A stretch of DNA of 64,000 bases. It comes from Chloroflexota bacterium. GTDB taxonomy: Bacteria > Chloroflexota > Anaerolineae > Anaerolineales > Anaerolineaceae. Below the pieces are notes generated by a model. It did no database searches. It was not told where the DNA came from and worked only from the letters and a program-made list of their open reading frames with translations. Shown here piece by piece: positions 40,252 to 48,425 of the stretch (positions within the stretch are counted from its first letter, which is position 1; every line of letters starts with the position of its first letter). The position numbers and the translations under genes are program-made. The stretch covers positions 1 through 64,000 of the forward strand of contig JAMCRR010000151.1 of assembly GCA_023381565.1 (NCBI GenBank), in the 5' to 3' direction.

Positions 40252-41553
40252 ATGAATATTAAAAAGTCTCTCTTCCCATTTACTGCCCAATCTGCATTGC
40301 GGGTGCTGCTGCTCGGTTACAGTGGCGCAAACAACACTGGAGCAGAAGCTCTGCTCCTGGCCGACATCGAAGATGTGCGCGCGGTGTTTGGCCCACAGGT
40401 GGTGATCACCATTCCCAGTATCAACCCGCCCAACTTGCGGCGATATGTCAAAGAGACGCCTAACTTGCGCATCGCTCCACTGCCGACCATTTTCTTCTCC
40501 ACGCTGCGCCGCCTGGTACGTGAGAACGACCTGGTCATGCTGGTTGAGGGCAGCACTTATATGGATACCTGGAGCTCGGTTTTGCTATGGGCCTATCTGT
40601 GGACGACGCGCTGCGCCGATGATATGGGTAAGCCCTGCCTGGCCTATGCGGTAGATGCTGGTGAGATCAAGTCGGCCTTTAACCGCTGGCTGGTGCGCCA
40701 CGAAGCCAGCAAAACATCGCTGATCATCACCCGGGCGGCAGCCGCCGCTAAGCGTATGCACTCTTATGGTGTGACCGCTCCCTTAGAAGTAACCGCCGAC
40801 AATGCTTTCAGTTTCTGCCCAAACCCAGCCGACGCTGGTCTGCTTTTCAGGGCCTGGCCTGAGGCAGGACCTGATGTGGTGGGTATGGCGCTGGTGGACT
40901 TCTATCAGTGGCCAGTGGTCATGAAACCCTGGGGGCCCAAGGCAGATTGCTATAAGAGGCCATTGTATTTCACACACTCGCCAGAACGAACGCGCCTCAC
41001 AGAGGCACTGGCGCGCAGTTATGCGGCCCTGGCTGATGACATGATCACGCGCTATGACAAATCGGTCGCTCTGATCGGGATGGAAGAGCTGGATGAAGCC
41101 ATGCTTCACAAGGTGCACGGTTACATGGTCCATCCCGAGAGGGCGCGCATCTTCTGTTCTCGCCAGTACAACGCGTCTCAGATGGTATCTATCCTGCGCA
41201 GCCTTGACCTGTTGTTGACCTCCCGCTATCACGCCTGCGTGCTCTCCCTGGCTGCTCAGGTCCCACAAATCGCGATCGGCCATGACCTGCGGTTGAAAAC
41301 CATCTATCAGGAGCTAGGCCTGTTCGAGGATTTCTTTGTCGAGCCTGGTACACACGATCTATACGAAAGCTTAAAACTACGTGTTGAGAGGTTGCTGGAG
41401 GATCCCTACTGCATACAAGAAGCCTTGCAGGTTGGTTTTGAGCAGCACCAAGGTGATGCCCGGCGCAACCGCACTCTGCTCAAGGATTTCGTCCTGGCAC
41501 AGGGCTGGGAGCCTGTACCTGGCGCAGCAACTATTTATATGGAGGCAGCATGA
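40252..41553 (+). CDS. Polysaccharide pyruvyl transferase-family protein
   Basis: 433 residues with AAGGA before the ATG. The family pattern is visible: N-terminal LLLGYSGANNTGAEALLLADI, middle EGSTYMDTWSS, and the late SRYHACVLSLAAQVPQIAIGHD motif. These proteins resemble GT-B enzymes and transfer pyruvate from phosphoenolpyruvate to glycans as ketals; some members have other roles. First gene of a tight operon; its last four bases overlap the next gene. In this context it could modify the head group of a lipid. That is inference. Upstream 40074-40251 has short repeats of aaataaacc but no gene. Confidence 0.8.
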   Translation: MNIKKSLFPFTAQSALRVLLLGYSGANNTGAEALLLADIEDVRAVFGPQVVITIPSINPPNLRRYVKETPNLRIAPLPTIFFSTLRRLVRENDLVMLVEGSTYMDTWSSVLLWAYLWTTRCADDMGKPCLAYAVDAGEIKSAFNRWLVRHEASKTSLIITRAAAAAKRMHSYGVTAPLEVTADNAFSFCPNPADAGLLFRAWPEAGPDVVGMALVDFYQWPVVMKPWGPKADCYKRPLYFTHSPERTRLTEALARSYAALADDMITRYDKSVALIGMEELDEAMLHKVHGYMVHPERARIFCSRQYNASQMVSILRSLDLLLTSRYHACVLSLAAQVPQIAIGHDLRLKTIYQELGLFEDFFVEPGTHDLYESLKLRVERLLEDPYCIQEALQVGFEQHQGDARRNRTLLKDFVLAQGWEPVPGAATIYMEAA

Positions 41554-44456
41554 ACGGGAACACCTCGAATCGCTATGTTTTGCTCACAGGCGCGACCGGT
41601 TTTCTGGGCGCTCAGATCGCCCGGCGGCTGCTCCGCGAAACGGACCTGACCATCATTGCCCTGGTGCGCGCCGACAATCAGGCGGCTGCTGCTCACCACC
41701 TTTCGCGCGCCTGGTGGGATTGGCCTGAGCTGGTCTCAGCGCTCACCTCCGATCCTGCCGTTGGAGGGGGAGATGGAGCGGGACTTCACAAAAAGGGGAA
41801 GGTCGAGATTATCCCAGGCGATGTCTCGTTGCCCCACCTGGGGCTGGATGAGGCCACGTATTCCTGCCTGGCGAGCCGCATTACCCACATCATTCATAGT
41901 GCGGCCGATCTGCGTTTAGATGCCCCTCTCGACGAGCTGCGCAAAACCAATTTCCAGGGAACAGCCAACATGTTGGAGTTAGCCCATTTTGCTCACCGCA
42001 ATCACGGCCTCGAACGTTACGCCCACGTCTCCACGGCTTATGTAGCGGGTGGACGGACCGGCCCCATTCCGGAGGCGGATCTGACCGGGGAGTATGGCTT
42101 TTCCTGCGCGTACGAGCTCAGCAAATATGAAGGCGAATGCCTCGTTCAGGCAGCCAAGAGCGAGCTGCCGGTTTCTGTCTTTCGCCCGGGGATGATTGCA
42201 GGCGCCGTGGATACTGGCGAAATCCGGACTTTCAACACTTTCTACTTTCCCCTGCGGCTCTACCTGACCGGGAAGTTGCCCATCATCCCGACCGACCGTG
42301 CTCTGCCGGTCAACATCATCCCGGTGGACTACGTGGCCGAAGCTATTGTTCGCCTGACCTTCTCCCCGGAGGCTACTGGGTTGAACTTCCATCTGACAGC
42401 CCCAGCCGGGTCGCTACCCCAGGCGGGCGAGCTATTGGAATTCGCCCGAACCTGGGCGCGCGAGAACCACGGGGTGCACCTGCCCCGGCCATTGTTCATC
42501 CGACTGCAACTGCCTCAAAAGCGGTACAGGCTTGAGCGTGGGAATGCGATCCATTCAGGATTTTTGAGGCAAACCCGGTGCATATCCCATTGGCCTGAAC
42601 TCAACGGCCTCTCTACCCTTCTGCCCTATTTCAACGAACGCAAACAATTCCAGCGAGAAAATGTCGACCGGCTGTTGGGTCCTTATACCTTGAACTGGCG
42701 CGAGTTTCTGCCTCGCTTGCTCGCGTATGCTTTCGACCAGGGCTTTATGCACCGCACAGATCGCAATGTTTACGAGCAGCTCCTCCTCCGGCTGGGTAGT
42801 AAGACCCGGCCGATCAGATACTTCGACATCGTGGATGGGAGGCTGGTCAGGCACGACGCTGGCGAAATACGGCGGGAGATCCTGGCGGCTGCCGGATCCC
42901 TGACTGCCCTCGGTGTCCTACCTGGAGACCGGGTCGCCATCGTCGGTCACAATAGTGCCCGCTACCTTACTCTGGACGCAGCCATCGGTCTGGTCGGGGC
43001 GGTGAGCGTCCCGCTGGTTTACACCAGCCCGCCGGCCGATATCGATCACATCCTAGCTGCCAGCGGGGCTCGGGTGCTGTTCGTCGGCGCCTCGAAAATC
43101 CTCGAGCGTCTGGGGGAGATCCAGGCGCATCTACCGGTTGTCTCTTTTTGCAAGGGACCTCTACCTGCAGACTTGGGACGGGAGGTGATCTCTTGGGAGG
43201 TCTTCATGACCTTGGGGTCGGGTCGCCAGGTGCCCCTCCGCGCGCCGGTCGGCTTGGGCGATCTGGCGACGCTGCGCTATACTTCAGGAACCACTGGCCG
43301 GCCCAAAGGGGTGAGCTTTCAGCATCAGCACTTGCGCTGGATGGGGCAGACCCTGGCTTCCTTACTTCCCTGGAAGGCTCGTAACAAGACGACCCATTAC
43401 CTCTCCTTCCTGCCCATGAATCATGTGATCGAGGGAATCCTGGCGACCTACGCCCCCTATTACATGCCTGCGGCAGTGAACATCTACTTTTTAGAAGACC
43501 TGAAAGACCTCCAGCACGCTTTGCCCCTGGTGCGACCAACGATCTTCTTCTCCGTGCCTCGCATCTACGAAAAGATCTGGGAGACGCTGAAGGCGAATCC
43601 GGTTGGACGCCTCTATTTGGGCCTCTGCAGCGGGCCGTGGAAGCGAGCCCTGGGTAAATTACTTCGCTGGCAAACTCTGAGAAAAGCCGGTCTGAACCGC
43701 TGTGCCCAGTTGATCGCCGGCTCAGCCCCTTGTGACGTGGGCTTGCTACAGAATTTCCGAGAGTTGGGCATCGAGATCCACAACGCTTACGGGATGACTG
43801 AAGCGCCGCTGGTTACCCTGAACCGTCTGGGAGCGAACCGCCTGGGGACAGTAGGTGAGCTCCTACCCCAAACGGAGATTCGAGTGGCCGAGGACGGCGA
43901 GGTATTGGTGCGCGGCCCCCAGGTGATGGCAGGATATTTCAATGAGCAGGGTGGTGGAAAATCAAATCAACCTTTCCAAGATAGGTGGTTATTAACCGGT
44001 GACCTGGGCTCTCTCTCTTCGGAAGGAAGTCTGGTGCTGAAAGGACGCAAGAAAGATCTGTTCAAAACCTCCTATGGAAAGTACATTCAACCGGCGAAAG
44101 TTGAAACGCTCCTGCGGGAGATCCCTGGAGTGACTGAGGCGATGCTGGTCGGCGAGAAACACCCATACTGTGTCGCCCTGCTATGGGTCCAAGGTAAAAC
44201 CCTGGACCAGGACGCCGGGCAACGTATCGACCGCCTGGTCGGCCAGGTCAACCACGATCTGTCGCACCCCGAGCAGGTTAAGCGCTGGGCTGTGCTGGCC
44301 AACGATCTCTCAATCGAGGCTGGCGACCTGACCGCGAACCTCAAGCTGAAGCGCCGGGAGATTTCCCGGCGGCTGAAGGATGTCTTAGAGGGTCTGTACA
44401 ACGGTATGAACATTTCTCAAGCCGTCCTGCACGTGGGCGAGGCCGGGAGGGATTAA
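41550..44456 (+). CDS. Fused acyl reductase / acyl-CoA ligase
   Basis: 968 residues. The N-terminal part (1-380) is an extended SDR of the thioester-reductase/fatty acyl-CoA reductase type: TGATGFLG at 13-20, IIHSAAD, STAYVAGG, and catalytic Y188-x3-K192. The C-terminal part (400-960) is an AMP-forming ligase: YTSGTTGRPKG at 577-587, NAYGMTE, TGDLG, and KDLFKTSYGKYI, most like long-chain FadD enzymes. No carrier (PCP/ACP) domain lies between them. Together they could activate a long-chain acid and reduce the thioester to aldehyde or alcohol, with CoA or a separate carrier. Carboxylic acid reductases have the opposite order. Confidence 0.88.
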   Translation: MNGNTSNRYVLLTGATGFLGAQIARRLLRETDLTIIALVRADNQAAAAHHLSRAWWDWPELVSALTSDPAVGGGDGAGLHKKGKVEIIPGDVSLPHLGLDEATYSCLASRITHIIHSAADLRLDAPLDELRKTNFQGTANMLELAHFAHRNHGLERYAHVSTAYVAGGRTGPIPEADLTGEYGFSCAYELSKYEGECLVQAAKSELPVSVFRPGMIAGAVDTGEIRTFNTFYFPLRLYLTGKLPIIPTDRALPVNIIPVDYVAEAIVRLTFSPEATGLNFHLTAPAGSLPQAGELLEFARTWARENHGVHLPRPLFIRLQLPQKRYRLERGNAIHSGFLRQTRCISHWPELNGLSTLLPYFNERKQFQRENVDRLLGPYTLNWREFLPRLLAYAFDQGFMHRTDRNVYEQLLLRLGSKTRPIRYFDIVDGRLVRHDAGEIRREILAAAGSLTALGVLPGDRVAIVGHNSARYLTLDAAIGLVGAVSVPLVYTSPPADIDHILAASGARVLFVGASKILERLGEIQAHLPVVSFCKGPLPADLGREVISWEVFMTLGSGRQVPLRAPVGLGDLATLRYTSGTTGRPKGVSFQHQHLRWMGQTLASLLPWKARNKTTHYLSFLPMNHVIEGILATYAPYYMPAAVNIYFLEDLKDLQHALPLVRPTIFFSVPRIYEKIWETLKANPVGRLYLGLCSGPWKRALGKLLRWQTLRKAGLNRCAQLIAGSAPCDVGLLQNFRELGIEIHNAYGMTEAPLVTLNRLGANRLGTVGELLPQTEIRVAEDGEVLVRGPQVMAGYFNEQGGGKSNQPFQDRWLLTGDLGSLSSEGSLVLKGRKKDLFKTSYGKYIQPAKVETLLREIPGVTEAMLVGEKHPYCVALLWVQGKTLDQDAGQRIDRLVGQVNHDLSHPEQVKRWAVLANDLSIEAGDLTANLKLKRREISRRLKDVLEGLYNGMNISQAVLHVGEAGRD

Positions 44457-44457
44457 G

Positions 44458-45009
44458 ATGCGCGTATTAATAAAGGTTCTCCCACATAATCTACCGGCCT
44501 TTATCCGCAAAAAGATCTTTGCACAGCTAGGTGAGGCCACAGCAGATGCCTTCGGGTGCCCGGCTCCTGCGCTTGATCACCTCTCCTCCGACGATTGCCA
44601 TCGGGCCTATGCCTTGTTTACCCGGGAGCAGGCTGAAAAAGCTCTCCGAGCTGGTCGTGAAGTATCGATTATCAAAACCCTGCTATACCAGCACGCTTAT
44701 CCCTTAGGCGTGCGACTTCGCAATTGGTTCGGGGTCGATACGATGGAGGAGGTGATGGATCTTGGGCAGATCCTCTACCGGGCGATCGGGGTTGAAATCC
44801 AGGGGAATCACCAGGGCGACATAACGGTGAAACGCTGCTACTTTAGCCAGTTCTATAGCGGTCCGTTATGCGATCTGGTCTCGGCATTCGATGATGGAGT
44901 CTTCTCGGGCTTATCGGGAGGCGGCAGGCTGACGTTCTCGGAGCGCCTTACGGAGGGTGGGGAGAGCTGCAGGGCGAAATTATGTATAAGAAGGAGTGGG
45001 GATAGATGA
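44458..45009 (+). CDS. ATC hydrolase-like small protein
   Basis: 183 residues. The first part is helical; the C-terminal half has KRCYFSQFYSGPLCDLVSAF, DDGVFSGLSGGGRLTFSERL and TEGGESCRAKLCIRR, a pattern that recalls the L-2-amino-thiazoline-4-carboxylic acid hydrolase-like family (two conserved Cys and a late ...C.a.l strand). The family includes many members of unknown activity next to oxidoreductases. It starts two bases after the reductase/ligase stop and overlaps the GMC gene by four bases. True reaction unknown; it may assist the oxidoreductase. Confidence 0.5.
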   Translation: MRVLIKVLPHNLPAFIRKKIFAQLGEATADAFGCPAPALDHLSSDDCHRAYALFTREQAEKALRAGREVSIIKTLLYQHAYPLGVRLRNWFGVDTMEEVMDLGQILYRAIGVEIQGNHQGDITVKRCYFSQFYSGPLCDLVSAFDDGVFSGLSGGGRLTFSERLTEGGESCRAKLCIRRSGDR

Positions 45010-46286
45010 AAAAAGCCATCGTGGTCGGCAGTGGGGCTGGCGGCGCGACTGTGGCGAAGGAACTCCAGGGCAATTATGAGGTGACGGTACTGGAAGCCGG
45101 CAAAGAATTCAAGCCTTTTACAATGAAGCTGGAAGGCCTGGAAAAGTTACGGCGGTTCGGTATGTTCTTCGACGAGCGCGAGATCCAATTCGTCATCCCG
45201 GCATATAAGATCCGGAAAGCAACCGATGATATGATCCTGGTGAATGGGATCGGGTTGGGAGGGACGACTACGATCTGTACCGGGAATGCCCTGCGCATGG
45301 ATCGGGATCTGAAAACTCTGGGGATCAATTTAGACGCTGAGTTCGCGGAAGTCTACCGTGAGGTCCCGGTGACCACCGCCCACCAGAAGAAGTGGCACAA
45401 GGTCACCCGGCGGCTGTTCGCCATCTTCCAGGAGCTGGGCCTAGAGCCGCAGCCAATGCCTAAGATGGGGGAGTATGAGCGCTGCCTGCATTGCGGTCGC
45501 TGCCAGTTGGGCTGCCCCAATGGGATCAAGTGGGACAGTCGTCGGTTCCTGAGGATCGCTCAAGATAAAGGGGCACAGGTAATCACCGGCTGTCATGTGG
45601 AGAGCGTAGTGATTGATGGCGGGCGAGCGACCGGCGTGCGGGCTAAAAATGGCTGGAATCACCATTTCTTCCCGGCTGACCTGGTTATACTGGCTGCAGG
45701 AGGGCTGGGGACTCCGGTCATCCTGGATAATTCGGGCATCCCTTGCGAGCCGCGCCTGTTCGTCGACCCGGTCCTGTGTGTGGCAGCCAGGGTGCCTAAG
45801 AGCATGCAATACAAAGAGATTACCATGCCGTTCGTCTCCATCCAAGAACGACTCATCCTATCCCCTTACTTCGATCATCTGAGCTTCCTATTCAATCAGG
45901 ATTGGCGCCCTCATGCCGGGGATATCGTCTCGATCATGATCAAACTGGCGGATGACGGACTCGGAAGCATTTCGAGCCAGCGAGTGGATAAAACCCTCAC
46001 GGACCAAGACCGGCGCAGGCTGGACGAGGGTGTAGGGATCTGCAGGGAGATTCTATGCCGTTTAGGGGCCTGTGATGAAGCGACGTTCCTGGGGAGTGTG
46101 ATCGCCGGCCATCCGGGCGGGATGCTGCCGCTCACCGAAAAGGAGGCCTCTAGCTTCCATTCTAACCGGCTTCCTGAAAACCTCTACGTGGCCGATGCCA
46201 GCTTGCTGCCCAAATCTTTAGGGATCCCGCCTATTCTGACGATTATCGCCATGGCCAAACGGATCAGCAAAATATGCTTGAGCTGA
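45006..46286 (+). CDS. GMC-type FAD oxidoreductase with four-cysteine cluster
   Basis: 426 residues. FAD-binding GSGAGGATVAKEL at 8-20 and a following acidic strand end (VLEAGKEF), NGIGLGGTTTICTGNALR, LVILAAGGLGTPVIL, and the C-terminal ENLYVADASLLPKSLGIPPI signature of GMC enzymes. C160, C163, C166 and C170 form CxxCxxCxxxCP, which resembles a [4Fe-4S] ferredoxin motif. Related long-chain alcohol oxidases oxidise fatty alcohols. It overlaps the preceding gene in ATGA and ends the operon. Could oxidise the alcohol made by the reductase, or work on a linked lipid. Confidence 0.85.
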   Translation: MKKAIVVGSGAGGATVAKELQGNYEVTVLEAGKEFKPFTMKLEGLEKLRRFGMFFDEREIQFVIPAYKIRKATDDMILVNGIGLGGTTTICTGNALRMDRDLKTLGINLDAEFAEVYREVPVTTAHQKKWHKVTRRLFAIFQELGLEPQPMPKMGEYERCLHCGRCQLGCPNGIKWDSRRFLRIAQDKGAQVITGCHVESVVIDGGRATGVRAKNGWNHHFFPADLVILAAGGLGTPVILDNSGIPCEPRLFVDPVLCVAARVPKSMQYKEITMPFVSIQERLILSPYFDHLSFLFNQDWRPHAGDIVSIMIKLADDGLGSISSQRVDKTLTDQDRRRLDEGVGICREILCRLGACDEATFLGSVIAGHPGGMLPLTEKEASSFHSNRLPENLYVADASLLPKSLGIPPILTIIAMAKRISKICLS

Positions 46287-46983: not shown

Positions 46984-47251
46984 ATAAGGTGAATTTTACT
47001 TTATTTCAAGTGGTGAAGGGCAGCTGGTGGCAACCTTCTGTATGGATGCCAACGTTCATTATCATGGGTTGATTGCTCTGGGTTGAAGGCCGGAGTAGCG
47101 GAGATGGAATAGAGCTTCAATCAAAAGGATCGATAACGTCACCTGCTAAAAATAATAGATATTTAATAGGTTATTTCAAGGACTTGGGCAGACCCTATCG
47201 CATACAATGGATGGTATCTCAATAATCTTTAATACAGAAAGCATGGAAAAA

Positions 47252-47539
47252 ATGGAAACAAAACTTTATGTTGGAAATATGTCTCACGATACGAACGAAC
47301 AGGATTTGCGTACAATGTTCAGTGAGGCCGGTACCGTAGGATCGGTAGATATTATCATGGACCGCCAAACAGGGGAACCAAGGGGTTTTGCCTTTGTCAC
47401 GATGAGCAGCCAAGACGAAGCAGAGAAAGCTGTCGTCATGTTCAACGCCATGAACCTGAATGCCAATACGCTTAAGGTCAACATTGCCAGGTCGCGTGAA
47501 GAACGGCCAACCACGGGCGGTCGGCCTACAACATTCTAA
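47252..47539 (+). CDS. RRM-type RNA-binding protein
   Basis: 95 residues from METKLYVGNMSHDTNEQDL; a start nine bases earlier is possible. One RRM: RNP2 LYVGNM, helix, RNP1 RGFAFVTM, then AEKAVVMFNAMNLNANTLKVNIA and a short Arg/Gly/Pro-rich tail (REERPTTGGRPTTF). Bacterial single-RRM proteins act as cold-shock or stress RNA chaperones. It opens the cluster of stress-type genes. Confidence 0.9.
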   Translation: METKLYVGNMSHDTNEQDLRTMFSEAGTVGSVDIIMDRQTGEPRGFAFVTMSSQDEAEKAVVMFNAMNLNANTLKVNIARSREERPTTGGRPTTF

Positions 47540-47873: not shown

Positions 47874-48425
47874 ATGCCACAAACCATTTCCTACGAACAT
47901 AAGAATTTACAGGTTACTTTCCAGCCAAACATCGGTTTGGATGCTGCTGCCCGCCAGTCTGTTGTCGAAATCCTCAATCATCTCCTGGCCGATGAGGCTG
48001 TGCTGTCGCTAAAAACCCGCCGCGCGAATGGGCATTCAAGCGGAGAGAATGTTCCTGAGCTACAGCCTCTCTATAATGCTCAATATAAGCAGATCAATGC
48101 CATCACGCGTGAGATTGGAGAAAGGATTCAAATCTTGGGCGGTTCTCCCCTGAGCGGTCCCAAAGAATTATTGGATACTGCCAGGTTGGATGGAAAACTC
48201 ACTATGGTTCCAGGGTCCATCAATATTTTAGCCGACCAGGAGGCTTTCATCCGTTGCTTGCGAGATGATATCCGCAAGTGTTCAGAGGAGTACGAGGACG
48301 AAGGTACTTTCGAATTGCTGGTAGGCGTTATGCGTCTGCACGAAAGGATGGCCTGGTTGCTCCGGTCCCATATCAAGCCGGAGATCATTCACGGCGTAGG
48401 CCAGAGACAGAATTTTGCTAGGTGA
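47874..48425 (+). CDS. Dps/ferritin-like protein
   Basis: 183 residues. Helical throughout, with the Dps-like pattern ADEAVLSLKTRRANG at helix 1, PLYNAQYKQINAITREIGERIQILGGSPLSG at helix 2, and EDEGTFELLVGVMRLHERMAWLLRSHI at helix 4. AAAAGGAG is about six bases before the ATG. Some iron-site residues of classical Dps (the HWxxxGxxF His pair) are not visible, so ferroxidase activity is uncertain. Probably forms a protective protein shell or binds DNA under stress. Confidence 0.7.
   Translation: MPQTISYEHKNLQVTFQPNIGLDAAARQSVVEILNHLLADEAVLSLKTRRANGHSSGENVPELQPLYNAQYKQINAITREIGERIQILGGSPLSGPKELLDTARLDGKLTMVPGSINILADQEAFIRCLRDDIRKCSEEYEDEGTFELLVGVMRLHERMAWLLRSHIKPEIIHGVGQRQNFAR

Follow-up and report, generated by a model that had tools for sequence, protein, structure and literature searches.

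A four-gene cassette with a carrier-less reductase–ligase fusion in Chloroflexota and archaea, possibly for an uncharacterised lipid pathway

Four adjacent genes of a Chloroflexota bacterium, encoding a pyruvyl transferase family protein (PST), a reductase–ligase fusion (FUS), a protein of predicted V4R/TRAPP fold (ORF3) and a GMC-family flavoprotein (GMC), may form a horizontally shared biosynthetic cassette for the pathway set out below, a reading to which we give a probability of about 45%. On our best reading, the substrate of this uncharacterised pathway would be a hydrophobic acid, which is reduced to the aldehyde or alcohol level, and a pyruvyl group would be added to the product or to a partner. 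Directly supported are the identity of the genes, the conservation of their order, the intact active sites and the predicted folds of ORF3 and of both halves of FUS. Each part comes from a known superfamily; their combination is conserved in both bacteria and archaea, and the literature searched contained no description of it. With the cassette, tests for a new lipid or lipid-glycan have a defined set of genes to start from, and a V4R-fold protein of prokaryotes gains a metabolic partner; the acid reductase, compact and free of a carrier, may also be of biotechnological use. What the V4R fold does in prokaryotes is poorly understood, and Bet3, a subunit of the eukaryotic TRAPP complex, is proposed to descend from it.

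Gene layout and the reductase–ligase fusion

The window, that is, the whole analysed stretch of 64,000 nucleotides, belongs to a draft genome of 4.3 Mb. The cassette spans positions 40252-46286 and consists of four intact open reading frames, all on the plus strand: PST (40252-41553, 433 amino acids), FUS (41550-44456, 968 amino acids), ORF3 (44458-45009, 183 amino acids) and GMC (45006-46286, 426 amino acids). PST and FUS overlap by 4 bases, FUS and ORF3 are separated by 1 base, and ORF3 and GMC overlap by 4 bases, so the description of these genes in the initial annotation as overlapping or nearly touching was accurate. The genes flanking the cassette are unrelated in kind to its four members, and within it there is no glycosyltransferase or acyltransferase gene. 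A gene for a MalT-like LuxR regulator lies 178 bases upstream, and a DUF2127 membrane protein is encoded downstream on the opposite strand. Control of the cassette by the upstream regulator had been suggested, an idea that lost its footing when the regulator was not found near the cassette in any relative searched. Also downstream are genes for an ordinary RRM RNA-binding protein (47207-47539) and an ordinary Dps/ferritin-like protein (47874-48425).

Pfam profiles match FUS in the order NAD_binding_4 (E 2.5e-55), AMP-binding (E 1.4e-54) and AMP-binding_C_3. In the AF2 model (mean pLDDT 80.4, 12 sequences in the alignment) the chain divides into a thioester-reductase (R) domain at residues 4-400 (41559-42749, plus strand) and an adenylate-forming half of the acyl-CoA-synthetase type at residues 403-948 (42756-44393, plus strand). 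The closest fold to the R domain is that of the myxalamid terminal R domain MxaA (4w4t/4u7w; Z 37.2, 334 residues aligned, rmsd 2.4, 28% identity), and the model of residues ~403-948 matches acyl-CoA ligases with Z about 36-37. The model holds no third domain and leaves no room for a carrier between residues 400 and 403; Pfam gave no PP-binding (PF00550) match in FUS, and no convincing carrier serine motif was seen in it. The catalytic residues of both halves are intact and are invariant in 12 homologues. In the R half these are G14/G20, S161 and Y188-K192 (G17 is present in the window), and FUS thus has the PF07993 match, Rossmann glycine motif and Y-x3-K of SDR thioester/fatty-acyl reductases. 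In the ligase half they are YTSGTTG (577-583), Y747-G748/T750-E751, T816-G817-D818, R833, K844 and K932, corresponding to the YTSGTTG, YGxTE, TGD and C-terminal Lys motifs of adenylate-forming ANL ligases. The fusion had been annotated as reductase first and ligase second, with no carrier; the Pfam order and the model agree with this.

Among R domains of this kind, some end with the aldehyde and others carry the reduction on to the alcohol. Against TIGR01746 (cut-off 213 bits) FUS stays below threshold, with 158.7 bits for the whole protein and 162.4 bits for the isolated half. The ligase half matches long-chain acyl-CoA ligases, and the substrate is probably a hydrophobic, long-chain carboxylic acid, homology leaving the exact specificity of the ligase unfixed.

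Carboxylic acid reductases (CARs), like FUS, join adenylation and an SDR-type reductase in one chain, and the halves of FUS align with the A and R domains of 5mso/5msc. CARs, however, are built as A-carrier-R, whereas FUS is R-A without a carrier, and FUS scores 197 bits against the NCBIfam CAR model NF041592, whose cut-off is 1300. Terminal R domains of NRPS/PKS systems follow a carrier at the C-terminus of a megasynthase, while the R domain of FUS is N-terminal to its ligase. The reversed order, which had been taken as a novelty, is not new by itself, because ElbD of Myxococcus xanthus already carries an N-terminal FAR-like domain ahead of its ACS domain, together with ACP and AGPAT-like domains (PMC9131029). 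The likeness of FUS to ElbD lies in the described domains and includes a lipid context. Of the four kinds of domain in ElbD (FAR, ACS, ACP and AGPAT), FUS has only the first two, in an order that agrees with the published one; and while ElbD belongs to the elb operon, FUS sits with PST, ORF3 and GMC. The novelty, as far as the literature searched shows, lies in the two-domain build without a carrier and in the partners conserved with it.

The three partner proteins

PST belongs to a distinct clade of the PS_pyruv_trans family (PF04230, E 1.3e-17, 65.1 bits against a gathering threshold of 25.3). Its best NCBIfam match, CsaB (TIGR03609), reaches 98.3 bits against a cut-off of 213.1, and PST falls below every equivalog cut-off. 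R325 and H327 are invariant, in an SR-x-H-type motif, and the PST homologues that adjoin FUS elsewhere are 47-66% identical to that of the window. It is the Pfam family that points to the reaction of PST, because the PST profile returned only chance matches in the PDB and no solved pyruvyl transferase. The pyruvyl transferases CsaB and WcaK have PF04230 in common with PST, but PST does not lie in a polysaccharide locus. A second copy of PST, 73-74% identical to that of the window, lies at a contig end in the genome of locus L021 (G772 C658, 2926-3558; L075).

ORF3 has no Pfam match even at E<=1. It had been called ATC hydrolase-like, and at the superfamily level this holds: a profile of the ORF3 family reaches ATC hydrolases (best hmmsearch score 34.9 bits; hhalign probability 95.8%, E 7e-9). 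As a recognisable ATC hydrolase it fails, with no match of PF14196 to ORF3 at E<=1 or anywhere in the window's genome. C127, C138 and C171 are invariant among ORF3 homologues; C127 and C171 have cysteine counterparts in ATC hydrolases, whereas C138 is specific to the ORF3 family. The Cys of ATC hydrolases that stands three residues before a conserved Asp is apparently Ser142 in ORF3, which makes ATC hydrolysis by this remote relative unlikely.

Searched against the PDB, the ORF3 sequence profile gave chance matches only. The AF2 model (pLDDT 88.8) has as its best structural relative TRAPP Bet3 with bound palmitate (6aq3; Z 12.3, 143 residues aligned, rmsd 3.2), followed by the phenol-sensor domains of DmpR, PoxR and MopR (Z about 10) and the V4R protein MJ1460 (Z 9.4); BcsD and H-NOX are also among the fold matches. 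The model thus falls within the V4R/TRAPP fold superfamily, in common with Bet3 and the DmpR-type sensors, although ORF3 itself is invisible to Pfam. V4R and Bet3 have been described as relatives, and the ligands of V4R domains are believed to be hydrophobic (PMC2253512). We regard ORF3 as a putative divergent V4R/TRAPP-fold protein, of a fold suited to hydrophobic ligands, a common fold being no proof of function. Covalent attachment of an acyl group, as in Bet3, was considered and dropped: a hand alignment of ORF3 to what we take to be the Bet3 sequence shows no Cys at the palmitoylated position.

GMC matches GMC_oxred_N (PF00732, E 1.8e-20) and carries the FAD motif GxGxxG, which places it among the GMC oxidoreductases; for a member of that family it is short. 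In an alignment of six homologues C160, C163, C166 and C170 are invariant and form the motif CxxCGxCxxGC (residues 160-170; 45483-45515, plus strand), a candidate Fe-S cluster site. The top PDB match of the GMC family profile is the FAD-glucose dehydrogenase of Burkholderia (6a2u), and in the profile alignment the motif overlaps the [3Fe-4S] cysteine loop of that enzyme, where Cys212/218/222 are the ligands of the cluster (PMC6719666). Judging from sequence, GMC is more likely a dehydrogenase linked to a predicted Fe-S cluster than an oxidase, and a dehydrogenase of this kind would suit anaerobic carriers better. H369 is invariant, and the same alignment puts an invariant P408 at the usual catalytic Asn/His position, which makes alcohol oxidation by GMC uncertain. 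The alpha subunit of FAD-glucose dehydrogenase (6a2u) and MftG-type proteins are members of the same family, but the cassette GMC is about 120 residues shorter and has Pro408 in place of their conserved catalytic Asn; nor was a gene for a gamma or cytochrome subunit seen near it. A comparable cysteine motif occurs in a GMC paralogue (L108, 1489-4080, in G671) that is encoded divergently beside a Roadblock and a V4R-domain protein, an arrangement that echoes the ORF3-GMC pairing.

Distribution and co-divergence

Full-length FUS is rare, being present in 5/400 genomes sampled from the window's order and in 4/194 genomes of the phylum of archaeon L029. A scan of named genomes found relatives in Chloroflexota, Thermoplasmatota, Fermentibacterota and Atribacterota and in two MAGs labelled Spirochaetota and Dadabacteria, and the closest named matches to the window's cassette are Anaerolineae/Anaerolineales MAGs. 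All relatives are MAGs of uncultured organisms, some of them fragmentary. PST, FUS, ORF3 and GMC are linked in this order in the window, in Chloroflexota loci L021 and L022, and in Thermoplasmatota loci L029 and L072, in the last of which GMC runs off the contig end; in L071, also from Thermoplasmatota, FUS stands at the front (FUS-PST-ORF3-GMC). The set is split over two contigs in G815 (PST-FUS and FUS-ORF3-GMC), consistent with a cassette, and appears as PST-FUS and ORF3-GMC pairs in Fermentibacterota genome G974. PST and FUS are adjacent in Atribacterota, and in L023, L027 and L028 the pair can be followed up to the contig or frame end. Linkage of this four-gene set recurs in other Chloroflexota and in archaea, which puts the gene order far beyond chance; the search for this set in other genomes, which the initial annotation had named as its own test, went in its favour.

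Genomes G014, G020 and G755 have FUS without PST, and G020 also lacks the close GMC clade, so FUS can work outside the cassette. Six FUS-bearing genomes have no PST next to FUS, and a search of them gave no PST of this clade elsewhere. In the sample of the order, only two genomes encode a GMC of the close clade (about 730 bits, against at most 267), and both have the whole cassette. FUS copies without PST sit in unrelated neighbourhoods, for instance near a CBM9 protein, GH94 and an aldehyde ferredoxin oxidoreductase in L049, and have no common neighbours except one unrelated gene present in both L049 and L063. The viral contigs searched held no relative, and the plasmids searched held only ordinary CARs and ligases; a Sphingobium plasmid match that resembled the R-A order is actually A-PCP-R.

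Pairs of relatives that are similar in one of the four proteins tend to be similar in the others too (Spearman 0.65-0.93 for pairwise identities, with p-values indicative only because the pairs lack independence). In the PST tree four archaeal sequences separate from seven bacterial ones with support 100/98, and the contig of L029 carries a regulator of archaeal type (HTH_10/HVO_A0563) and an FpoD/NuoD-like gene; both observations argue that the archaeal copies are resident and not contamination. The scattered distribution suggests horizontal exchange of the cassette between bacteria and archaea that are mostly anaerobic. The FUS genes of L024 and L025, from the MAGs labelled Spirochaetota and Dadabacteria, are nearly identical and form neighbouring tips on very short branches; because they are so alike and the MAGs apparently come from one study, one or both are likely mis-binned. 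In L026 (Methanomassiliicoccales bin396) FUS runs into Ns with an HdrA-type gene downstream, and the assembly may be wrong.

Proposed pathway and its alternatives

In the pathway that we favour, the ligase half of FUS would activate a hydrophobic, probably long-chain, carboxylic acid to the acyl-AMP and then to the acyl-CoA, or load it on a partner protein. The R domain would then use NAD(P)H to reduce the thioester to an aldehyde and possibly on to an alcohol; because no carrier is fused, it would act on diffusible acyl-CoA or rely on a separate partner in trans. ORF3, with its hydrophobic-ligand-binding fold, may hold or present the greasy intermediate. GMC, probably wired to a one-electron acceptor through an Fe-S cluster, would oxidise an alcohol or a related group, and PST would move enolpyruvate from PEP onto a diol of the product or of its acceptor. 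The substrate, direction, order of steps and product of this pathway are inferred, and the re-oxidation step and the pyruvylated glycolipid that had been suggested earlier are likewise hypothetical.

The same genes could be read in other ways. FUS might be a trimmed version of ElbD, its fatty aldehyde or alcohol going into alkyl or alkenyl ether lipids of the plasmalogen type, with PST and GMC modifying the head group. The FAR-before-ACS order of ElbD and the missing aldehyde of elbD mutants (PMC9131029) fit such a role, as do the reported wide occurrence of ElbD-like genes, including in Chloroflexota and some archaea (Woesearchaeia) (PMC11868695), and a patatin/NTE-type phospholipase gene that adjoins the cassette in L022 and has a homologue in L021. 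We nevertheless consider it unlikely, given that FUS has nothing corresponding to the ACP and acyltransferase domains of ElbD, that the cassette contains no AGPS/GNPAT-like or glycerol-phosphate gene, and that the known pathway has no role for PST or ORF3. Envelope glycan pyruvylation is improbable to a similar degree: here PST would act on a surface polysaccharide, and the other three proteins would make a small organic decoration (for example, an aldehyde derived from an amino or hydroxy acid) instead of a lipid. The function of the PST family, the CsaB match (though below cut-off) and the latitude that homology leaves for the ligase substrate all allow this, but no glycan gene occurs in the cassette or is conserved beside it in the flanks examined, and both the long-chain matches of the ligase and the fold of ORF3 speak for a hydrophobic substrate.

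A role in catabolism or detoxification of hydrophobic acids appears very unlikely. GMC enzymes do oxidise alcohols and, together with FUS, could interconvert hydrocarbon alcohols, aldehydes and acids, while ORF3 would sense or bind the hydrocarbon, its fold being that of the aromatic-hydrocarbon sensors DmpR, PoxR and MopR. Yet it is hard to see what PST, whose occurrence is closely coupled to that of FUS, would do in such a scheme, and ATP-driven reduction of an acid is biosynthetic in direction. A more specific version of the biosynthetic reading, in which the V4R/TRAPP-fold protein takes the place of the usual carrier and handles activated or reduced acyl intermediates for the reductase–ligase fusion, and in which the end product is a pyruvyl-ketal-bearing alkyl lipid of undescribed type made by both bacteria and archaea, strikes us as a long shot.

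Within the biosynthetic reading, a lipid context is supported by the gene that directly follows GMC in L021 (6613-7293) and L022 (14694-17069). It encodes a cNMP-binding protein, 70% identical between the two where both are present, which in its complete form in L022 is a cNMP-NTE-patatin phospholipase and possibly a fifth member of the cassette.
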